Positions 25,263 through 41,926 of a stretch of 64,000 nucleotides of DNA are shown here, piece by piece. A program made the position numbers and the translations under genes. This DNA is from Mumia quercus. GTDB lineage: Bacteria > Actinomycetota > Actinomycetes > Propionibacteriales > Nocardioidaceae. Every line of letters begins with the position of its first letter. The first letter of the stretch is position 1. Below the pieces are notes generated by a model. That model worked only from the letters and a program-made list of their open reading frames with translations. It did no database searches and had not been told where the DNA came from. The stretch is taken from contig NZ_JANZYO010000001.1 in NCBI RefSeq assembly GCF_025506335.1, forward strand, positions 590,074 through 654,073, read 5' to 3'.

Positions 25263-26029
25263 CGGCGCGCTGGGACCCACGTCTCTACCTCGCGTACGAG
25301 TCGGAGCGTGCGCGGCCGTTCATCGATCTTGTGATGCGCATCCTCACGCACCCGCGCACGATCGTCGACCTCGGCTGCGGCCCCGGCCACCTGAGTGCGG
25401 TGCTCCTCGACCGGTGGCCGGATGCGACGGTGCTCGGCGTCGACTCCTCGCCGGAGATGGTTGCGCAGGCCCGGCGTGACGCGGCGGGGCCGCAGGTCTC
25501 GTACGCGCTGGGCGACCTCGCGACGTGGGCGCCGCCGGTGCCGGTGGACCTGGTGATCTCGAACGCGGCCTTCCAGTGGGTGCCGGACCAGCTCGAGGTC
25601 GTGCCGCGCCTGCGCGACCACGTCGCGCCGGAGGGGGTGCTGGCGTTCCAGGTGCCCGACAACCACCACGAGCCCAACCACGTGCTGCTCCGCGAGATCG
25701 CTGGCCGGGCGCCGTACGCGAAGCACACCGCGGGCCTCGCGCTGACGCGCAGCGTCTCGCCCGCGACGTACCTCGACCTCCTGGCCGACGACGCGTGGGA
25801 CCTCGACGTGTGGGGGACGACGTACTACCACGTGCTGGAGGGGGAGGACCCCGTCTACCGGTGGATCTCCGGCACCGGCGCACGTCCGGTGCTCGAGGCG
25901 TTGCCGCCGGGTCTTCGTGAGGACTTCGAGGCGGAGTACAAGGCGGCGCTGCGCGAGGCGTACCCGACGCGGTCGTACGGGACGGTGCTGCCGTTCCCGA
26001 GGAGCTTTGTCGTCGCGAAGCGGCGCTAG
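25259..26029 (+). CDS. tam: Trans-aconitate 2-methyltransferase
   Basis: The 256-residue SAM-dependent methyltransferase is very close in length and pattern to Tam. ARWDPRLYLAYESERARPF is the typical N-terminus, motif I is TIVDLGCGPGHLSAVL, and the acidic motif is VLGVDSSPEMV. NAAFQWVPD and the C-terminal AYPTRSYGTVLPFPR are also characteristic. Tam monomethylates trans-aconitate, a spontaneous inhibitory product of cis-aconitate. GTG overlaps the Clp-N stop. Its TAG shares the sequence CTAG with the stop codon of the convergent TetR gene. Confidence 0.92.
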   Translation: MTARWDPRLYLAYESERARPFIDLVMRILTHPRTIVDLGCGPGHLSAVLLDRWPDATVLGVDSSPEMVAQARRDAAGPQVSYALGDLATWAPPVPVDLVISNAAFQWVPDQLEVVPRLRDHVAPEGVLAFQVPDNHHEPNHVLLREIAGRAPYAKHTAGLALTRSVSPATYLDLLADDAWDLDVWGTTYYHVLEGEDPVYRWISGTGARPVLEALPPGLREDFEAEYKAALREAYPTRSYGTVLPFPRSFVVAKRR

Positions 26030-26676
26030 CTCTCGTCCTTGCGGGGGAGCAGCTCGGGCTTGGTGTCGAGGTGGGAGAGGCCGTTCCAGGCGAGGTTGAC
26101 GAGGTGGGCGGCGACGACGTCCTTGCTCGGCTTGCGCGCGTTCAGCCACCACTGTCCGGTCGTGGAGACCATGCCGACGAGCATCTGTGCGTACATGGGC
26201 GCGAGCTTGGCGTCGTACCCGCGCCTCTTGAACTCGCCGACGAGGATGTCCTCCACCCGGCTCGCGATGTCGCTGATGATGCTGACGTACGAGCCGGTCG
26301 GCGTGCCGACGGGGGCGTCGCGGACGAGGATCCGGAACCCGTCCGAGCTGGTCTCGATGTAGGTGAGCAGCGCGAACGCCGCGCCCTGGAGGAGCTCGCG
26401 GGGCCCGCCGCTGCTGAGTGCGGAGCGCATGCCGCCGAGGAGGGTCTGGACCTCGCGGTCGACCACCACGGCGTAGAGCCCTTCCTTGCCGCCGAAGTGC
26501 TCGTAGACCACGGGCTTGGACACCGAGGCGCGCGAGGCGATCTCCTCGACGGTGGTGCCGTCGACCCCCTTCTCCGCGAAGAGCGTCCGGGCGATCTCGA
26601 TGAGCTGCTCGCGCCGCTCGGCGGCGGTCATCCGCTTGCTGCTCCGCTTGGGTGCCGGATCGCTGTTCTTGGCCAT
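26026..26676 (-). CDS. TetR/AcrR-family transcriptional regulator
   Basis: The 216-residue protein has a TetR DNA-binding domain (about 17-64): RREQLIEIARTLFAEKGVDG, then EIASRASVSKPVVYEHFGGK. The helical ligand domain follows. ATG at 26676 is preferred because a -10-like CAGAAT ends 7 nt upstream. The longer frame adds a low-complexity N-terminus. A palindrome at 26797-26814 in the divergent gap is the likely operator, shared with the secreted hydrolase gene. The ligand cannot be deduced. Confidence 0.9.
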   Translation of the reverse strand: MAKNSDPAPKRSSKRMTAAERREQLIEIARTLFAEKGVDGTTVEEIASRASVSKPVVYEHFGGKEGLYAVVVDREVQTLLGGMRSALSSGGPRELLQGAAFALLTYIETSSDGFRILVRDAPVGTPTGSYVSIISDIASRVEDILVGEFKRRGYDAKLAPMYAQMLVGMVSTTGQWWLNARKPSKDVVAAHLVNLAWNGLSHLDTKPELLPRKDES

Positions 26677-26796
26677 TCTCGGCATTCTGCCGCACGCGAC
26701 GCTTCGGGCGTCGTCGGCGTCGTCCGGCGCCGATCCCCGGAATCCCAGCATCCGGTGGTGCGCCGCCGCCGCGGAGGATATGGCGCGGAAAACAGG

Positions 26797-26814
26797 TAAG
26801 CAAGCGCTTAGTTA
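26797..26814. promoter_or_regulatory. TetR-type operator between tetR and hydrolase genes
   Basis: TAAGCAAGCGCTTAGTTA is an imperfect 18-bp palindrome, TAAnnAAGCGCTTnnTTA, in the divergent gap. It is a typical size and symmetry for a TetR dimer. The distances are about 120 bp to tetR and 140 bp to the hydrolase start. Confidence 0.6.
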
Positions 26815-26953
26815 TCGGGATTCATAGCAGGAAAAGGAAGTTCTGTGGCGCTCTTGCCCTCATTGTCATCGAGTCGTTAACGTCCCGTTCACTTCGCGGG
26901 CTTCCGGACCAGCTGGGGGCGTTCTCGGGCCGCTGATCGAAGAGGAGAACGAG

Positions 26954-27820
26954 ATGTACAAACAGCTCGTGGTCCGTCTCGCGGCGCTCGTCGCGACCGT
27001 GACCCTCCCGCTCGTCGGGGTCGCGGCACCGACCGCCGTCGGCGCCGAGAACCCGTACGAGCGGGGACCGGCCCCGACGTCGTCCAGCGTCCTCGGCAAC
27101 GGCTCGTACAGCGTCAGCACGACCTCGGTGTCGAGCCTGCTCGTGAGCGGTTTCGGGGGCGGGACGATCTACTACCCGTCGACCACCTCGGACGGGACGT
27201 TCGGCGGCGTCGTCCTCGCCCCGGGTTTCACCGCCACCTCGAGCGCGTACGCCGGCGTCGCCCGGCGCGTCGCCTCGCACGGCTTCGTGGTCTTCGCCAT
27301 CGACACCAACACGACGCTCGACCAGCCCGACAGCCGCGGCCGGCAGATCCTGGCGGCGCTCGACTACCTGACCCAGCGCAGCTCCGTGCGGTCGCGGGTG
27401 GACGCCTCGCGGCTGGCCGTGTCGGGTCACTCGATGGGTGGCGGGGGCACGCTGGCCGCCGCCAGCTCACGCTCCAGCCTGAAGGCGGCGGTCGCGCTGC
27501 AGCCGTGGCACACGACCAAGAGCTGGCCCGGCGTCCGCGTGCCGACGATGATCATCGGGGCGCAGACCGACACCATCGCGCCGAACTCGTCGCACTCGAT
27601 CCCGTTCTACAACAGCCTGACGAACGCGCCCGAGCGTGCGTACGGCGAGCTGCGGGGAGAAGGGCACCTGGCCGCCAACACGAACCCCGACTGGCAGGGG
27701 CGGCTGATGGTCACCTGGCTCAAGCGGTACGTCGACTCGGACCTGCGCTACTCGCAGTTCCTCTGCCCGGCGCCGAGCTCGCTCTCGCTGTCGGACTACC
27801 GCAACTCCTGCCCGGACTGA
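26954..27820 (+). CDS. Secreted cutinase / polyester-hydrolase-like alpha/beta hydrolase
   Basis: The 288-residue protein has a Sec signal peptide (cleavage near AVGA, residue 31). The mature part begins ENPYERGPAPT, as in Thermobifida cutinases. The triad is S160 (GHSMGGGG), D206 (QTDTIAP) and H238 (GEGHLA). The oxyanion or aromatic-clamp position is F92 (PGFTA), where characterised enzymes usually have Tyr. W185 (QPWHTTK) is kept, and C271/C286 match the conserved C-terminal disulfide. TTLDQPDSRGRQILAALDYL and VTWLKRYVDSDLRYSQFLCP are family signatures. These enzymes hydrolyse cutin, aliphatic polyesters and often PET; activity here is untested. ATG follows GAGGAG, and the TetR gene is divergent. 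Confidence 0.93.
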   Translation: MYKQLVVRLAALVATVTLPLVGVAAPTAVGAENPYERGPAPTSSSVLGNGSYSVSTTSVSSLLVSGFGGGTIYYPSTTSDGTFGGVVLAPGFTATSSAYAGVARRVASHGFVVFAIDTNTTLDQPDSRGRQILAALDYLTQRSSVRSRVDASRLAVSGHSMGGGGTLAAASSRSSLKAAVALQPWHTTKSWPGVRVPTMIIGAQTDTIAPNSSHSIPFYNSLTNAPERAYGELRGEGHLAANTNPDWQGRLMVTWLKRYVDSDLRYSQFLCPAPSSLSLSDYRNSCPD

Positions 27821-27846
27821 CGGCCCGAGCCTCCCTCCAGTGACGG

Positions 27847-27881
27847 GGCCGGGCGCGATGGTGGAAGCACCGCGCCCGGCC
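27847..27881 (+). terminator. Terminator after the hydrolase gene
   Basis: An 11-bp perfect stem GGCCGGGCGCG / CGCGCCCGGCC encloses a 13-nt loop, 26 bp after the stop codon. Confidence 0.65.
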
Positions 27882-27993
27882 TCCCTCCATGATCGCGGAG
27901 GCCCTCGCCGCATCTGCCGGCCGGGGCGCCCGCTTGCGCTTCTCCGGCCCCGGGCGGACGGTGGAGGGGCACGCCCGTCCCTGAGGAGGTCGC

Positions 27994-28227
27994 ATGCATC
28001 TCAGCAAGATCGCGAAGTGGGGTCTCGTCGTCGCCGTGGTGGTCGCGTTCGTCGGCTCCGGTCTGGTCATGCTCGTGCTCGTCCGAAACGGGGCCCTCAA
28101 CAGCTACCCGTGGGAGTCCGTCGGCACGGCTCTGGCCATCTTCGGCGCCATCTCCGGACTCGTGGCCGGGATCGCCGAGGCAGACCTCGGCACCCACAAG
28201 ACGAAGCGGGACGCCGGGATCCGCTGA
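27994..28227 (+). CDS. Small two-helix membrane protein
   Basis: The 77-residue protein has a basic N-terminus (MHLSKIAKWG), a first helix (about 9-31), a short loop with NSYPWE, a second helix (about 43-62) and a charged tail (THKTKRDAG). A strong GAGGAGGT site lies 4 nt before the ATG, which supports a real gene. I do not recognise the family. It converges on the desaturase gene, 8 bp away. Confidence 0.75.
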   Translation: MHLSKIAKWGLVVAVVVAFVGSGLVMLVLVRNGALNSYPWESVGTALAIFGAISGLVAGIAEADLGTHKTKRDAGIR

Positions 28228-28235
28228 CGCGGCGC

Positions 28236-29180
28236 TCAGGCCGCGACGCGCTTGGCCTCGATCCGCGACGCGACCGGCCAGCGGACGTCGCGGACCCATC
28301 CGGCCTTCTCGAAGAGCCAGATGAGACGGGCCGAGATGTCGACCTGACCGCGCAGCACCCCGTGCCGCGCGCAGGTCGGGTCGGCGTGGTGAAGGTTGTG
28401 CCACGACTCGCCCATCGAGGGGATCGCGAGCCACCACACGTTGCCGGAGCGGTCACGCGACTTGAACGGCGACTCGCCCATCGTGTGGCAGATGGAGTTG
28501 ATCGACCAGGTCACGTGGTGAACCAGGAAGACCCGGACGAGCGACCCCCAGAAGAACGCCGTCACCGCACCCTGCCACGACCAGGTGACGAGTCCGCCGA
28601 TCACCGCCGGCGCGGCCAGCGACACGAGCACCCACAGCGGGAACTGTCGCGACAGCCGCACGATGTCGCGGTCCTTGAGGAGATCAGGGGCGTACTGGCG
28701 CTGCGGCGTCTGCTCGGCGTTGAACATCCAGCCGAGGTGCGCGTAGGCGAATCCCTTGGTCAGTGCCGGCACGGTCTCGCCGTAGCGCCAGGGCGAGTGC
28801 GGGTCGCCCTCGCGGTCGGAGAACTTGTGGTGCTTGCGGTGGTCGGCGACCCAGCGGGTGATCGGGCCCTGGATGGCCAGGCTCGCGGCGACGCCGAGGG
28901 CGATCTTGAGCGGGCGGTTCGGCTTGAACGACTTGTGCGTGAAGAGTCGGTGCATGCCGACGGTGACGCCCAGCGAGCCGATCAGGTAGAAGACGGCGAG
29001 AAGGACGAGGTCGACCGGCCCGAGCCAGCCGCCCCACGCGACGGGGACGGCCGCCAGCAGCGCGAGGAAGGGGACGGCGACGAAGACGCCGAGGGTGAGC
29101 TGCTCGACGCGGCCCGGCGGGGTTCCTTCGGCGCCGTGGCCTGCCTCGTTGCGGATCGGCGTCTCGAGTCCTGCGGACAT
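28236..29180 (-). CDS. Membrane fatty-acid (acyl-CoA delta-9) desaturase
   Basis: The 314-residue di-iron membrane desaturase has all three histidine boxes: H77RLFTH82, H114RKHH118 and H261NLHH265. At least four transmembrane segments surround them. It introduces a double bond into saturated acyl chains and so adjusts membrane fluidity. ATG at 29180 follows GAGGAG with a 6-nt gap; the in-frame ATG at 29207 lacks such a site. An operator-like palindrome lies at 29222-29239. The electron donor is not encoded nearby. Confidence 0.94.
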   Translation of the reverse strand: MSAGLETPIRNEAGHGAEGTPPGRVEQLTLGVFVAVPFLALLAAVPVAWGGWLGPVDLVLLAVFYLIGSLGVTVGMHRLFTHKSFKPNRPLKIALGVAASLAIQGPITRWVADHRKHHKFSDREGDPHSPWRYGETVPALTKGFAYAHLGWMFNAEQTPQRQYAPDLLKDRDIVRLSRQFPLWVLVSLAAPAVIGGLVTWSWQGAVTAFFWGSLVRVFLVHHVTWSINSICHTMGESPFKSRDRSGNVWWLAIPSMGESWHNLHHADPTCARHGVLRGQVDISARLIWLFEKAGWVRDVRWPVASRIEAKRVAA

Positions 29181-35072: not shown

Positions 35073-38000
35073 GTGAAGAAGGCACTGATCGCGGCAGGCG
35101 CCGCAGCCGCGCTGACCGTGGGAGGGCTCGCGGCGATGTCGCCCTCCGTGAACGCGGCTCCGTCGACGGTGGGCACCGTCGTCAGCGACGACCCGGTGAA
35201 CTGGACCCCGCACGTCCTCGACGGCCGGGTCAACTCGATCGTCCAGGTCGGTGACCAGATCGTCCTCGGCGGCGAGTTCACGCAGGCACGCGACGACCGA
35301 CGCAACGACCCCTCGGAGACCGTGGTGCCGCGCGTCGATCTGCTGGCCTTCGAAGCGGCGACGGGCAAGCTCAGCACGACGTTCACCCCGGAGACCGACG
35401 GGTCCGTCAACGTCGTGCTGCCGGCCGGGGACGGCGAGTCCGTCTACGTGGGCGGCTCCTTCACGACGATCGCCGGCCAGCCCGCGAAGAACCTCGCGCG
35501 CATCCGGGTGTCGGACGGCTCTGTGGTGCCCGGGTTCGACGGCGGCTCGCCGACCGGCGTGGTCAAGGACCTGCGCCTTGCCGGCGGTCGGTTGTACGTC
35601 GCGGGGATGTTCACCCACATCCAGGGCAAGCGGCAGCCCGCCCTGGCCACTCTCGACCCCGAGACGGGCGCCTTCGACCCGTTCGTCGCGAACGCGTTCG
35701 AGGGCGTGCACAACAGCGGCTTCACCGGGGTCCAGAAGATCGACGTCGACCCGCAGGCCACGCGTCTGGTCGCGATCGGCAACTTCGCGACGGTGGACGG
35801 CGCGGCCAACCACCAGATCGTCATGCTGGACGTCTCCGGGTCCCAGTCCGCCGTCTCGGGCTTCCACACAAATTTCTACACGCAGGCGTGCTCGCAGTCC
35901 TTCGACTCCTACATGCGAGACCTCGACTTCTCGCCGGACGGCTCGTTCTTCGTCATCTCCACGACGGGCGCGTACGGCGGCCAGAACGCCCCCTGCGACA
36001 CCACCGCGCGGTTCGAGAAGGACCGGGTCGGCACCAACCTCCAGCCGTCGTGGATCGCGTCCACGGGCGGCGACACCACGTACGCCGTGGAGATCACCGA
36101 CGCCGCCGTCTACACCGGCGGTCATGCGCGCTGGCAGAACAACCCCTTCTCGGGTGACCGCGCGGGGCAGGGCGCGGTCTCGCGGCCCGGCATCGCGGCT
36201 CTCGACCCCGTCAACGGTCTGCCGCGCACGTGGAACCCGACCCGGACCCGTGGTGTGGGTGTCTTCGACTTCCTCGTCAACGACCAGGGCCTGTGGGTGG
36301 GTTCTGACACCGACCGGATCGGTGCGTACGAGTACCACGGCCGGATCGCGCTGATGCCGCTGGCCGGGGGCACCCCGGTCGACAAGGTCACGACGCCCCA
36401 GCTGCCGAACGACCTCTACCTGGCGAACACGAACGGGAGCCTCACCAAGCGTCCCTTCACCGGCGCGAAGCCGTCCGCTGCGCAGTCCGCCCCGTCGGGC
36501 GGGATCAACTGGAACTCCGCCCGCGGCGCCTTCATGGTGAACGGCTACCTCTACGCCGCGTGGTCCGACGGCAGCTTCAGTCGACGCACCTTCGACGGCT
36601 CGACGTACGGTCCCGTGGAGCAGGTCAACACGGCCGACCTCCTGACCAACCTGTCGGACTGGGACTCCGACGCGGCGACGGCGACGGGCATGTTCTTCGA
36701 CGAGGGGCGCCTGTACTACACGCGCAGCGGCTCCTCGAGCCTCTTCTACCGCTACTTCACTCCGGAGAGCGGAGTCGTCGGGGCGAAGCGGCTCACCGCG
36801 AGCACGGGCGTCTCGGGCATCAGCTTCTCGGGTGTCCGTTCGATGGTCCTCGGCGGCGACAAGCTGGTCTTCACGACGAGCCTCAGCGAGCTCAAGCAGA
36901 TCGACTGGCAGCGCGGTCCGATCGCCGGCGCTCCCGTGGCCGGCACGGCGACCACGCTCTCCTCGCCGTTCACGGACGGTCAGTCGTGGTCGAGCGTCCG
37001 GTCGATGTTCCTGTTCCAGGACGCCGACGGTGACGGGGTCCCGCTCCCGCCGACCGCGGAGTTCACGTCGTCGTGCACCAGCCTCGACTGCGCGCTCGAC
37101 GCCACCGATTCGACCGCGCCGTCGTCGGTGATCGAGTCCTACGCCTGGGACTTCGGCGACGGGACGTCGGGCACGGGCGCGACGGCCGACCACCGCTACG
37201 CGGCGTCGGGCACCTACGACGTCACCCTGACGGTCACCAACCGCAAGGGCACCGCGACCAGCACCACCAAGCAGGTCCAGGTCACCCGTGTGAACGAGGC
37301 GCCGGTCGCCGCGTTCACCACGAGCTGCGACGAGCTGACCTGCACCTTCGACGGTGCGGAGTCCAGCGACCCCGACGGCACGATCGCGTCGTACGAGTGG
37401 AGCTTCGAGGCGGGCGCGTCGGCGACCGGCAAGAGCGTGACGCACGAGTTCACCGACGGCGGGACCTACGCCGTCACACTCACGGTGACCGACTCCGACG
37501 GCGCCACCGCGTCGACGGAGCATGACGTGGTCGTGGCTCGGACGGCGCTGGCGTTCGTCGGTGCCTCGAGCACCAACGGCAACCGCACCTCGCACCCGCT
37601 CGCGGTCCCCTCGGGCACCGAGGTCGGGGACACGTTGGTCCTGTTCTTCACGGGCAACTCGAGCACGAGCACGGCTGCGGACCCCGCTGGCTGGGAGCCG
37701 CTCGCCGTCGGTGACGCCGACGGGATCGCCGCGCGGGCCTGGACTCGCACGGCGACGGCCGCCGACGTCGGCGGGACCGTGACCGTGACGACGAGCGGCA
37801 CTGTGAAGGCGGACCTCTCGCTCGCCGTCTACCGCTCGAACGGTGACGGTGCCGCGGTCGTGAGCGCGGCCGGCTCCGCGGCGACGGGCCCGGTGACGAC
37901 GTTCGCGAGCCCGGGTCTCACCTCGCCGGGCGGTCCCACGTGGCTGCTGAGCTACTTCGCCGTGAAGTCCAGCGACACGACGGCGATCACCGTCTCGGGA

Positions 38001-38168
38001 CTGGAGCAGCGCGCCAGCTCGGAGGGTGCCGGTGGCGGTCGGATCTCCGCGCTGCTCGGCGACTCCGGTGGCGCCGTCCCGGCAGGGGCGGTGGGTGGGC
38101 TCTCGGCCACGCTGAGCCCCAACGGCAGCCGTGCGGCCACCTTCTCGGTGCTCGTCACGGCCCAGTGA
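35073..38168 (+). CDS. Large secreted propeller-like/PKD protein, paralogue 1 of 3
   Basis: The 1031-residue protein has a signal peptide (1-28, ending SVNAAP). A long repeat region (about 30-640) has propeller-like blades: TPHVLDGRVNSIVQVGDQI, VLGGEFT, VYVGGSFTTIAGQPAKNLAR and WVGSDTDRIGAYEYHGRIAL. Two PKD domains follow (about 660-742 and 745-825; WDFGDGTSGTG, YEWSFEAG). The C-terminal module (about 830-1031) starting STNGNRTSHPLAVP is shared with two other proteins in this window. No anchor is seen. A TAGACT -10 lies at 35022-35027. It sits next to the initiating sugar transferase, suggesting a role in binding or organising the polymer. The activity is unknown. Confidence 0.85.
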   Translation: MKKALIAAGAAAALTVGGLAAMSPSVNAAPSTVGTVVSDDPVNWTPHVLDGRVNSIVQVGDQIVLGGEFTQARDDRRNDPSETVVPRVDLLAFEAATGKLSTTFTPETDGSVNVVLPAGDGESVYVGGSFTTIAGQPAKNLARIRVSDGSVVPGFDGGSPTGVVKDLRLAGGRLYVAGMFTHIQGKRQPALATLDPETGAFDPFVANAFEGVHNSGFTGVQKIDVDPQATRLVAIGNFATVDGAANHQIVMLDVSGSQSAVSGFHTNFYTQACSQSFDSYMRDLDFSPDGSFFVISTTGAYGGQNAPCDTTARFEKDRVGTNLQPSWIASTGGDTTYAVEITDAAVYTGGHARWQNNPFSGDRAGQGAVSRPGIAALDPVNGLPRTWNPTRTRGVGVFDFLVNDQGLWVGSDTDRIGAYEYHGRIALMPLAGGTPVDKVTTPQLPNDLYLANTNGSLTKRPFTGAKPSAAQSAPSGGINWNSARGAFMVNGYLYAAWSDGSFSRRTFDGSTYGPVEQVNTADLLTNLSDWDSDAATATGMFFDEGRLYYTRSGSSSLFYRYFTPESGVVGAKRLTASTGVSGISFSGVRSMVLGGDKLVFTTSLSELKQIDWQRGPIAGAPVAGTATTLSSPFTDGQSWSSVRSMFLFQDADGDGVPLPPTAEFTSSCTSLDCALDATDSTAPSSVIESYAWDFGDGTSGTGATADHRYAASGTYDVTLTVTNRKGTATSTTKQVQVTRVNEAPVAAFTTSCDELTCTFDGAESSDPDGTIASYEWSFEAGASATGKSVTHEFTDGGTYAVTLTVTDSDGATASTEHDVVVARTALAFVGASSTNGNRTSHPLAVPSGTEVGDTLVLFFTGNSSTSTAADPAGWEPLAVGDADGIAARAWTRTATAADVGGTVTVTTSGTVKADLSLAVYRSNGDGAAVVSAAGSAATGPVTTFASPGLTSPGGPTWLLSYFAVKSSDTTAITVSGLEQRASSEGAGGGRISALLGDSGGAVPAGAVGGLSATLSPNGSRAATFSVLVTAQ

Positions 38169-38299: not shown

Positions 38300-41200
38300 A
38301 TGAAGCGCTTACTCGCCGTCATCGGCTCGAGCGTCCTCGTCGTCAGCGCGATGCTCACCTCTCCCGCGCTCGTGTCCTCGGCAGCAGCGGCGACACCGAC
38401 GAACGGCAACCTCGTCAGCGCGGACCCGGCCGACTTCACCCCGCACGTGCTCGACGGCAGGGTCAACTCGATCGCCCAGGTGGGCGGCACGATGGTGCTC
38501 GGCGGGTCGTTCACCCGGACGCGCAACAGCACGAGCGCGACGGAGATCGCCCGAACGAACCTGGTCGCGTTCAACGCGACCACCGGCCAGATCACGTCCT
38601 TCGCCCCGAACCCGAACGGCACGGTCAACGTCGTCATCCCCGCCGGTGACGGCCAGAGCGTCTACGTCGGCGGGTCGTTCACCTCGATCGCCGGTCAGTC
38701 GGCGAAGAACCTCGCGCGCATCCGGGTGTCGGACGGTGCCCTCGTCGCCGGCTTCAACGGCGGCTCGCCGACCGGCGTGGTCAAGGACCTGCGGCTCGCC
38801 GGCGGACGCCTCTGGGTCGCGGGGGCGTTCACTCACATCCAGGGCAAGCGGCAGCCGGCGCTGGCGACGATCAACCCCTCGACGGGCGCGTTCGACCCGT
38901 TCATGGGCCTGGCGATCGAGGGCGTCCACAACGGCGGCTACACCACCGTCAGCAAGATCGACGTCGATCCTGCCGCCTCGCGCCTGGTCGCCGTCGGCAA
39001 CTTCGACACCCTCGCCGGCGCCAAGAACCACCAGGCCTTCATGCTCGACACCTCCGGCGGTGCTGCGGCGCCCTCGGCGTTCCAGACGAGCTACTACGAG
39101 ACGCCGTGCTCGCAGTCCTTCGACTCCTACATGCGAGACGTCGACTTCTCTCCGGACGGCACGTTCTTCGTCATCAGCACCACGGGCGCGTACGGGGGCC
39201 CCGACGTCGCCTGCGACACGACCGCGCGTTTCGAGGAGAGCTCGACAGGAACCGGCGTCCAGCCGTCGTGGGTCGACGCGACCGGCGGCGACACCACGTA
39301 CGGGGCCGAGATCACCGACAACGCCGTCTACGTCGGCGGACACCAGCGCTGGCAGAACAACCCGTACGCCGGTGACACCCCGGGAGCAGGGGCGGTCGCG
39401 CGTCCGGGGATCGCGGCGCTGGATCCCCAGAACGGCCTGCCGATGAGCTGGAACCCCACCAGGACCCGGGGTGTCGGCGTCTTCGACTTCCTCTTGACCT
39501 CCCAGGGCCTGTGGGTCGGTTCGGACACCGAGCGCATCGGAGCTTTCGAGTACCACGGCCGCATCGCGCTGATGCCGGCCAACGGGACTGCGGTGCCTCG
39601 TGTGACGACGCCCGGCCTGCCCAACGAGATCTACCAGGCGGGCACCCTCGGGTCGGCCAGCGACCCGCGCGTCCTCTACCGCGTGAACGCCGCGGGCCCC
39701 GAGCTCAGCGCCGCGAAGGGCATCGACTGGGCCGCCGACACCGACGCGTCGCCCAGCCCGTACCACAACGCCGGCAACAACCGCGCTGGATGGGGGACGG
39801 TCGGAAGCGTCGACTCGACGGTGCCTGCCGGTACCCCGGTGGACCTCTTCAGCTCGGAGATGTGGGACGGCGGAGGGGGCGAGGAGATGCACTGGGGCTT
39901 CCCGGTGCCTGCCGGGACCCGCGTGCAGGTCCGGCTCTACTTCGCCAACCAGTGCTCGTGCACCGACGACCCGGGTGAGCGGCGGTTCAGCGTCGCCGTC
40001 GACGGCAGCACCGTGCTCCCCGACTTCGACATCGTCGCCGCCGTGGGCCACAACCGCGCCACCATGCGGACGTTCGACGTGACCAGCGACGGCAACGTGG
40101 ACATCGACTTCGGCCACATCGTCGAGAACCCGCTCATCAACGGGATCGAGATCATCAACCTCGACATCCCGGAGTCGCCGAGCACGGCGGGCTCGCTGAC
40201 GAAGCGCTCCTACAACGCCGGGACGGTCGGCCCGTCGGTCACCGCACCCGCAGGCGGGATCGACTGGAACCAGACGCGCGGGGCGTTCATGGTCAACGGC
40301 CAGCTCTACCTCGCGATGGCTGACGGGTCGTTCAGCCGGAGGTCGTTCGACGGCACCGGCTTCGGAGCGTCCTCCCCGGTCGACACGGCCGACCAGCTCG
40401 TCCCGCTGGCGGCCTGGCGCAGCGACGCCTCGCAGGCCACCGGGATGTTCCTCGACGACGGGCGGCTCTACTTCACCCGTGCGGGCTCGTCGTCGTTGTA
40501 CTACCGGTACTTCACCCCCGAGAGCGGCGTGGTGGGTGCCAAGCAGCTGGTGGCGAGCGGGAACGTCGACGGGATCGACTTCTCGAAGGTGAAGGGGATG
40601 TTCTCGACCGGCGAGAAGCTGTTCTGGGCGACGGCCGACGGCAACCTCCACCGCATCGACTGGCAGCGCGGCGCCCGCCACGGGCAGCCCGTCGCCGGCA
40701 CCCACGCCGTGGTGTCCGGCCCGGCGGTCGACGGCAACGCGTGGGCGAGCCGGGCGATGTTCCTCTTCCAGAACGCCGACGGCAACGGCGCGGGCCTTCC
40801 GCCGGCGGCGAGCTTCGAGAGCCAGTGCGACAGTCTGACGTGCGCGTTCGACTCGAGCGAGAGCACGGCTCCAGGAGGAACGATCTCCTCGTACGCCTGG
40901 AGTTTCGGGGACGGCGCGACCTCGACCGCGGCGAACCCCTCGCACACGTACGCAGCCAACGGGAAGTACACCGTGACCCTGACGGTCACCACGCAGGCGG
41001 GTGCGAGCGCGACGACCACGCGCCTCATCACCGTCACCCGGGTCAACAAGGCACCCACGGCCGAGTTCGACGTCACGTGCGACCAGCTCGTGTGCGCGTT
41101 CGACGCCTCGTCGTCGACGGACCCTGACGGTGAGATCGTGTCGTACGGCTGGAAGATCGGCACCGCCACCGCGCAAGGGGTCACGACGCAGCACGAGTTC

Positions 41201-41926
41201 GCCGCGGCGGGGACCTATCCGGTCACGCTGACCGTCACCGACAACGAAGGCGCTCAGCGCCAGGTGACTCGCGACGTCGCGGTCACGACTGCGCCGGCAC
41301 CCGCGCTGGGGCACGTCGCCGCGGCGAGCACGAACGGCAACAGGTCGGTCCACGCCGTCGCCATCCCGGCGGCCGTCCAGGCAGGAGACCAGCTGATCGC
41401 CACCTTGAACGTCAACTCCTCGACGGTGACCGTGACTCCGCCGGCCGGCTGGACGGAGATCGCCTCGGCCGACGCGGACGGCTTCCGTACGCGCGCGTGG
41501 GCGAGGACCGCGGTCGCCTCCGACGCCGGTGCGACCCTCACCGCCGGGACCTCGGCTCTCGCGAAGTCGGCCTTCACCGTCGCCGCGTACCGGTCGAACA
41601 CCGGCAAGGTGACGGTCGCCGAGGCGAAGCTCTCGTCCTCGTCTGCGGTGACGTCGGCGACGTCACCCACGGTCACGGGCGTCGCGGGCGGTTGGCTGGT
41701 CACCTCCTGGGGAGTGAAGTCGAGCAACGTCCTCTCCTGGCAGCTTCCGACGGGCTCGGCGGTCCGCTCGACGTCGACCGGGAGTGGGGGCGGAGCGGTC
41801 TCCGACGCCCTCGTCGACAGCGGTGGTCCGCTCACGACGGGTCCTGCCGGCGGGCTCACCGCCACCTTCGGCGCGCAGGTGAGCCGCGCCGCGGCTGTCT
41901 CCCTCGTCCTCAAGGCGGTGCCGTGA
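38300..41926 (+). CDS. Large secreted propeller-like/malectin/PKD protein, paralogue 2 of 3
   Basis: The 1208-residue protein has a signal peptide (1-30) and the same N-terminal repeat region as paralogue 1 ([35 protein letters not shown]). It differs by an inserted malectin-type carbohydrate-binding domain (about 467-625; NRAGWGTVGSVDSTVPAGTP, RLYFANQCSC, GIEIINLDIPE). Two PKD domains (about 830-1000) and the shared C-terminal module (STNGNRSVHAVAIP, about 1005-1208) follow. A TAGACT -10 is at 38246-38251. The stop overlaps the GTG of the WecG-like gene, so the secreted protein and a cytoplasmic glycosyltransferase are translationally coupled. Confidence 0.85.
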   Translation: MKRLLAVIGSSVLVVSAMLTSPALVSSAAAATPTNGNLVSADPADFTPHVLDGRVNSIAQVGGTMVLGGSFTRTRNSTSATEIARTNLVAFNATTGQITSFAPNPNGTVNVVIPAGDGQSVYVGGSFTSIAGQSAKNLARIRVSDGALVAGFNGGSPTGVVKDLRLAGGRLWVAGAFTHIQGKRQPALATINPSTGAFDPFMGLAIEGVHNGGYTTVSKIDVDPAASRLVAVGNFDTLAGAKNHQAFMLDTSGGAAAPSAFQTSYYETPCSQSFDSYMRDVDFSPDGTFFVISTTGAYGGPDVACDTTARFEESSTGTGVQPSWVDATGGDTTYGAEITDNAVYVGGHQRWQNNPYAGDTPGAGAVARPGIAALDPQNGLPMSWNPTRTRGVGVFDFLLTSQGLWVGSDTERIGAFEYHGRIALMPANGTAVPRVTTPGLPNEIYQAGTLGSASDPRVLYRVNAAGPELSAAKGIDWAADTDASPSPYHNAGNNRAGWGTVGSVDSTVPAGTPVDLFSSEMWDGGGGEEMHWGFPVPAGTRVQVRLYFANQCSCTDDPGERRFSVAVDGSTVLPDFDIVAAVGHNRATMRTFDVTSDGNVDIDFGHIVENPLINGIEIINLDIPESPSTAGSLTKRSYNAGTVGPSVTAPAGGIDWNQTRGAFMVNGQLYLAMADGSFSRRSFDGTGFGASSPVDTADQLVPLAAWRSDASQATGMFLDDGRLYFTRAGSSSLYYRYFTPESGVVGAKQLVASGNVDGIDFSKVKGMFSTGEKLFWATADGNLHRIDWQRGARHGQPVAGTHAVVSGPAVDGNAWASRAMFLFQNADGNGAGLPPAASFESQCDSLTCAFDSSESTAPGGTISSYAWSFGDGATSTAANPSHTYAANGKYTVTLTVTTQAGASATTTRLITVTRVNKAPTAEFDVTCDQLVCAFDASSSTDPDGEIVSYGWKIGTATAQGVTTQHEFAAAGTYPVTLTVTDNEGAQRQVTRDVAVTTAPAPALGHVAAASTNGNRSVHAVAIPAAVQAGDQLIATLNVNSSTVTVTPPAGWTEIASADADGFRTRAWARTAVASDAGATLTAGTSALAKSAFTVAAYRSNTGKVTVAEAKLSSSSAVTSATSPTVTGVAGGWLVTSWGVKSSNVLSWQLPTGSAVRSTSTGSGGGAVSDALVDSGGPLTTGPAGGLTATFGAQVSRAAAVSLVLKAVP

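Follow-up and report, generated by a model that had tools for sequence, protein, structure and literature searches.

A PETase-family hydrolase of Mumia quercus with a PHL7-like pocket and a predicted place in a beta-oxidation regulon

The window analyzed here, a 64,000-nucleotide stretch of Mumia quercus DNA, carries the gene of a PETase-family enzyme that is probably a secreted lipid- or cutin-type ester hydrolase with a PHL7-like pocket, under the control of a TetR regulator encoded at a distance among beta-oxidation genes. The enzyme is a new sequence of a known enzyme kind; its predicted link to a regulon and its place in a separate clade deserve follow-up. To our knowledge, what actinobacterial PETase-like enzymes act on in nature is for the most part guessed from plastic and model-ester assays. 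An operator common to beta-oxidation genes and a second lipase would tie one PETase-like enzyme to lipid or cutin use on comparative-genomic grounds and, if true, regulon membership would give a genetic answer to the question of the natural purpose of PETase-family enzymes.

The hydrolase gene and the residues discussed below are the following, in positions of the window:

26954..27820, plus strand: coding sequence of the hydrolase, a presumably secreted PETase-family (PF12740) protein of 288 aa, from the ORF and from family and structure matches
26954..27046, plus strand: probable Sec signal peptide, residues 1-31, with cleavage before ENPYERGP, by eye and from an AlphaFold pLDDT <50 over residues 1-30
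27227..27229, plus strand: codon of Phe92 at the aromatic clamp/oxyanion position (PHL7 Phe63), from the alignment and PHL7 residue lists
27431..27433, plus strand: catalytic Ser160 (GHSMG), from the alignment of 110
27506..27508, plus strand: Trp185, the substrate-site Trp (PHL7 Trp156), from the alignment and PHL7 lists
27569..27571, plus strand: catalytic Asp206, from the alignment of 110
27665..27670, plus strand: catalytic His238 and Leu239 (PHL7 His209-Leu210), from the alignment of 110 and PHL7 lists
27764..27766, plus strand: Cys271 of the C-terminal Cys pair, Cys in 98/110 relatives
27809..27811, plus strand: Cys286, its partner, Cys in 98/110 relatives and a gap in 12

The ORF starts with ATG, and a GGAG-type ribosome site lies ahead of it. 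The PETase profile PF12740 matched residues 31-287 with 348 bits (cut-off 28, E 4.4e-104). A phmmer search of the PDB with the hydrolase as query returned 179 distinct sequences at E <=1e-10, the best at E 7.9e-106, and the top matches (60 of the 179 listed) included ancestral PETases, the Thermomonospora curvata hydrolase, PET40, the Streptomyces exfoliatus lipase, MtCut, and PHL7. By these matches, which are far beyond chance, the hydrolase is an alpha/beta-hydrolase of the PETase/bacterial-cutinase family. This is what the sequence-only reading had proposed on the basis of the motifs ENPYERGP, GFGGGTIYYP, GHSMGGGG, and PWHTTK and of a C-terminal Cys pair (Cys271, Cys286), all of which are present. 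That reading had also suggested structure modelling, and the AlphaFold model, built from an 18-row alignment (mean pLDDT 83.9, pTM 0.83), indeed resembles PETases and PHL7: its best match was 7ykq, at 61% identity, and PHL7 (7nei) stood at 58%. Of the fifty solved structures closest in fold, none exceeded 63% identity to the hydrolase. The name BdeA, a bis(hydroxyethyl) terephthalate (BHET) hydrolase, was considered and set aside because the equivalog profile NF051441 of NCBIfam scored 411.9 bits, under its curated cut-off of 520.

The active site was read from an alignment of 110 distinct rows, which is 135 PETase-like ORF hits minus 25 identical or contained copies. The relatives' loci were the best 80 of 514 genome loci, and residue frequencies therefore lean to the close kin of the query. 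Ser160, Asp206, His238, Met161, Trp185, and Gln124 were invariant (110/110). The hydrolase has just two Cys residues, 271 and 286, which are predicted to form a disulfide. As claimed earlier, residue 92 is Phe where Tyr had been expected at the clamp, but this is not exceptional and does not make the enzyme a novelty: the column held 83 Phe and 27 Tyr in our sample, weighted to the hydrolase's nearest kin, and PMC10213408 gives 51% Tyr and 46% Phe family-wide. Likewise, the clamp residue of Cut190 is Phe106 (PMC9039725). Leu239, the equivalent of PHL7 Leu210, was rarer than Phe92, being found in 11/110 relatives, all of one clade and all with Phe92.

Numbering of the hydrolase equals that of PHL7 plus 29, an offset deduced from the match of query residues 33-287 to 7nei residues 3-258 and from agreement of the triad and of residue types. 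With this offset, 8/8 of the PHL7 subsite I residues listed in PMC11219463 match in the hydrolase. From the same paper, the subsite II list matches at 6/11 positions, and PHL7 L210F is given an activity down by about half; the 16-residue pocket list in PMC10213408 matches at 15/16. The hydrolase is thus like PHL7/PES-H1 (7nei, 7cuv), a type I PET hydrolase, in fold, triad, Phe63/Leu210 equivalents, subsite I, and pocket list, and unlike it in subsite II and in overall sequence (57-58% identity). The nearest solved relatives, at 61-63% identity, are the T. curvata hydrolase (7yko/7ykq), PET40 (8a2c), and ancestral PETases (8etx-8eu1); 7yko and PET40 share the Phe at the clamp in the PDB alignments. 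Another relative of the same family, at 62% identity, is the S. exfoliatus lipase (1jfr), deposited as a lipase. Type I PET hydrolases have a single C-terminal Cys pair and are without the extended loop of type II. The hydrolase has one Cys pair, and the five PDB alignments listed show no insertion around its catalytic His. The extended loop has a column of its own in the table of PMC11219463. Since the enzyme belongs to this family and retains PHL7 subsite I at 8/8 positions, it may fairly be predicted to hydrolyze polyesters.

A maximum-likelihood tree of the 110 rows split off 17 sequences with a branch support of 100/100. This clade was picked by its missing Trp101, which is therefore part of its definition (0/17), and the other four residues that mark it are not: Tyr99, Ala241, Gln248, and Gly249 were found in 17/17. 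Among the other 93 relatives, Trp101 and a Pro at 241 were each found in 93, Tyr99 in 0, Gln248 in 1, and Gly249 in 3. The clade changes sit in one helix and after the catalytic His. Its members come from the window genus (6/6 genomes) and from Nocardioides, for example, N. luteus, N. albus, and N. turkmenicus (L008-L016, L052-L056). Ten clade members were 68-94% identical to the hydrolase, and distant members were down to 56% identical to each other. Matches at E 1e-30 were found in 35 of 294 Nocardioidaceae genomes, a sample from a larger group. The five PDB sequences with alignments listed keep the helix Trp and have Phe after the catalytic His, where the hydrolase has Gly101 and Leu239. 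Since these five keep the Trp and the top 50 structures reach at most 63% identity, it is unlikely that a structure has been solved from within the clade. The clade pairs PHL7-like subsite I residues with an altered segment after the His, which makes it useful for relating sequence to polyester activity. As a side observation, the hydrolase of N. luteus-type genomes (L037, L038, L040, L045) adjoins a gene whose product has HGYIS(N/D)PPSRQ after a signal-like start, a beginning typical of AA10 LPMOs. Tandem pairs of PETase-family genes (L051, L064, L101) were also noticed: one family genome, G120, has such a pair, as do two genomes of Streptomyces.

The region around the hydrolase holds the following further features:

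26797..26810, no strand: operator-like palindrome TAAGCAAGCGCTTA, 143-145 bp ahead of the hydrolase start in 6/6 genus genomes
26854..26859, plus strand: putative -35 TTGCCC, by eye, with the TTG conserved in six genomes
26875..26886, plus strand: block CGTTAACGTCCC, identical in 6/6 genus genomes and holding a putative -10, TAACGT (26878-26883, by eye)
26026..26676, minus strand: divergent FasR-like TetR regulator, from profile, PDB, and genus-genome matches
28236..29177, minus strand: fatty-acid desaturase, no more than a few kb from the FasR-like TetR in 6/6 genus genomes

The distance from TAAGCAAGCGCTTA to the hydrolase start was 143, 144, 143, 143, 144, and 145 bp in the six genomes of the genus (G000, the window genome, to G005), and the palindrome was kept there although three of the genomes carry the hydrolase elsewhere than the other three. 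A pattern of the same type, TAAGCNNNNGCTTA, occurred at 57 places in these genomes, against 1 for the reversed control. The window genome had 10, against 0.6 expected from base composition, and all 10 lay 10-143 bp ahead of a gene start. For the nine others than the hydrolase, the operator stood 10-66 bp from the start codon. In the window genome, the pattern was found before:

the hydrolase
a 600-aa acyl-CoA dehydrogenase
livG of a liv-type (branched-chain type) ABC transporter
a thioesterase on one side and an SDR reductase on the other
a TetR gene in one direction and, in the other, an acyl-CoA dehydrogenase-family gene with a thiolase behind it
a Zn-binding oxidoreductase
a MaoC-domain protein
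a lipase whose N-terminus is signal-like (Lipase_C and AF_1763-like domains)
a serine hydrolase, beta-lactamase-like by eye
another acyl-CoA dehydrogenase

For some of these genes, the family was scanned on an orthologue of another genus genome. Most NCBIfam scores fell under the equivalog cut-offs; that of the thiolase was above its own. Every place was viewed in two genomes, G000 and G005. In G005, 9/10 stood before genes like those of the window genome and the tenth before an SDR gene (by eye); of the 9-10 places in each of the other four genomes, those viewed (G001 6/9, G002 5/10, G003 5/9, G004 5/9) were all before such genes. A fatty-acid regulon as the best explanation is weakened by several members that are not tied to fatty acids in particular, namely, the Zn-binding oxidoreductase, the SDRs, and the serine hydrolase, and by the liv-type transporter, whose substrate may be of another kind. 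Two conserved genes near one operator, of 680 and 237 aa, were tried as an acyl-CoA ligase and a TetR and rejected, as helicase and LexA domains were found in them. The second lipase (L163:5275-6606, G000:C8), apparently secreted, has the operator type 48 bp upstream and is followed by a carboxyltransferase-domain gene; a similar gene with an operator site was seen in G004 (L173).

Outside the genus, the operator was absent before the 11 clade-mates from other genomes and before the remaining relatives, where the best match was 13/16, in two Amycolatopsis. The N. luteus, N. albus, and N. turkmenicus homologues, although of the same clade as the hydrolase, had no TAAGC operator found in front of them, and their gene neighbors differed where compared. 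The link between operator and hydrolase is confined to the genus and therefore says little about the whole clade. Incidentally, the 13/16 matches, CTGAGCAAGCGCACAG upstream of the Amycolatopsis homologues L082 and L102, were not palindromic, lay 285-289 bp upstream of the matched start, and were equaled by 0 and 1 of 100 shuffles. Further weak matches were noted in a third Amycolatopsis (L106, 11/16) and in an Actinoplanes (L111, 12/16).

One of the genes behind the operator encodes a TetR protein:

G000:C6:376641-377222 (L166:12299-12892 in G003): distant TetR gene with PF17932 and PF00440 domains

This gene adjoins the acyl-CoA dehydrogenase-family gene and the thiolase. It was present in 6/6 genus genomes, with the site 29-53 bp ahead of the matched start. 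Matches to it were found in 31/52 genomes searched (18/39 at E 1e-40 and 13/13 at E 1e-30); the other 21/39 relatives were without a match at E 1e-40. A relaxed operator pattern stood within 250 bp upstream of the best hit in 27/31 genomes and was missing upstream of 4/31. This count leaves out three second copies (L192, L206, L207), likewise without a site, with which it becomes 27/34, and two more weak matches in G133. Across 80 other loci, 1,282 kb in all, the same relaxed pattern had 0 occurrences. Because the distant TetR gene is linked to the operator across genomes, there is strong comparative evidence that the two form a regulator-operator pair, and binding is predicted. Sequence relatives of the distant TetR include 3him and KstR2 (4w1u/4w97). 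From the TetR regulators of lipid catabolism in actinobacteria, such as KstR2 and KstR (Rv3574 and its M. smegmatis orthologue), the distant TetR differs by its predicted operator, TAAGCNNNNGCTTA. A literature search recognized no study of the distant TetR regulator among the matches listed.

Taken in this way, the Ser160-Asp206-His238 triad would hydrolyze ester bonds in long or polymeric substrates lodged between Phe92 and Trp185. The natural role would most likely be to release fatty acids or hydroxy-fatty acids from lipids outside the cell or from plant polyesters (triacylglycerols, cutin, suberin), an everyday job suggested by the fact that the operator is apparently common to fat-degradation genes. 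The distant TetR would bind TAAGCNNNNGCTTA before the hydrolase, the liv-type transporter, the acyl-CoA dehydrogenases, the MaoC hydratase, the thioesterase, the second lipase, and its own gene, so that on arrival of acyl chains extracellular hydrolysis, perhaps uptake, and beta-oxidation would switch on together. The ligand would be a fatty acid or an acyl-CoA, the latter by analogy with other TetR fatty-acid regulators. The earlier idea of induction by a released compound survives in this form, with the sensor moved from the adjacent TetR to the distant one. We lean, if only by a modest degree, towards a wider statement: that a beta-oxidation regulon has a PETase-family enzyme hard-wired into it, alongside a transporter and a second secreted lipase, that the operator of this enzyme, placed upstream of the core promoter, may activate, and that the 17-member Nocardioidaceae clade, in which the segment after the His is rebuilt, is an uncharacterized branch of PET hydrolases.

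The sequence-only reading had given the palindrome to the divergent TetR beside the hydrolase. Both exist, and a local circuit in which this TetR represses the hydrolase through the palindrome between them, with a released product as ligand, is suggested by the divergent orientation, by the intergenic position of the site, and by the recurrence of this layout in the two nearest species, G003 and G004. We nevertheless hold it to be very improbable. The hydrolase lies between this TetR and the desaturase in 3/6 genus genomes (the window genome, G003, and G004), whereas in G001, G002, and G005 it lies at other places and the TetR orthologue (81-88% identical there; 81-93% over the other five genomes, the gene being in 6/6) is found near the desaturase and glmU without it. 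In G005, a gap of 403 bp without the hydrolase separates the TetR match from the desaturase match. The desaturase accompanies the TetR within a few kb in 6/6 genomes, and glmU and prs lie close by in the stretches compared. In G001, G002, and G005, the 10-14 kb surrounding the TetR contained no TAAGCNNNNGCTTA, the nearest such sites in G005 and G002 being ~7 kb off, before an SDR gene, and the relocated hydrolase kept its palindrome. Since it is conserved with the hydrolase in 6/6 genomes and absent around the TetR in these three, the palindrome is, on genomic context, an element that goes with the hydrolase and not with the neighboring TetR. Ownership by the neighbor, which stays with the desaturase, was therefore rejected. 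The neighboring TetR itself is FasR-like, scoring 117.5 bits with NF053731 (FasR), below the cut-off of 330, and matching PDB 6o6n and 6o6p, structures of FasR of M. tuberculosis. It is probably not the regulator of the hydrolase.

A variant compatible with control by the distant TetR is that this protein acts as an activator, or that the site controls a long-leader transcript. It arises because the operator lies upstream of the putative core promoter, its center ~87 bp before the guessed transcription start and the operator itself ~44 bp upstream of the putative -35. Such placement is odd for simple repression and counts against the best explanation in its plain form. The variant draws on the fixed 143-145 bp distance in six genomes and on the conserved CGTTAACGTCCC, whose TANNNT-like -10 has a TTG ~18 bp ahead of it (by eye). 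However, a consensus scan of 26650-28250 gave 0 sigma-70-type sites, so that the -35 and -10 were named by eye, and two other promoters of the regulon have a -10-like TACGTT or TAGAGT directly ahead of the operator, the layout expected of a repressor (by eye, three genomes). We regard the variant as possible but less likely than not.

As to the enzyme, a plain secreted lipase or esterase of the S. exfoliatus type, without useful polyester activity, is rather doubtful. It accords with 1jfr being among the nearest solved structures, with the label of triacylglycerol lipase that the T. curvata enzyme bears in the PDB, and with a clade altered after the catalytic His and devoid of the Trp that 93/93 other relatives keep; yet PHL7 subsite I is fully retained, and PET40 and the ancestral PETases, which bear the name PETase in the PDB, stand just as close (62-63% identity). 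At the other extreme stands an enzyme dedicated to synthetic polyesters (PET/PBAT) and selected for the use of plastics or industrial polyesters. The pocket near that of PHL7, with its Phe63 and Leu210 equivalents, speaks for this, as does the loss of activity in PHL7 L210F reported in PMC11219463. Against it, the gene is present as a single copy (E 1e-20) in 6/6 genus genomes, within a Nocardioidaceae clade, and its operator is common to fatty-acid genes; we consider such a dedicated role highly unlikely. A search for the tannase family PF07519, to which MHETase belongs, gave 0 matches in the window genome, but it also matched in 0/14 control genomes and so carries no weight either way.

Two minor observations concern other genes of the window. 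Directly downstream of the hydrolase, at 27994-28227 (plus strand), lies a 77-aa ORF of two-helix membrane type (by eye), whose sequence is kept in the two nearest species (L032, L033). Further on, 35073-38168 and 38300-41926 (plus strand) encode two neighboring very large proteins with signal-like N-termini and a common motif, TPHVLDGRVNSI, which appear to be tandem paralogues.
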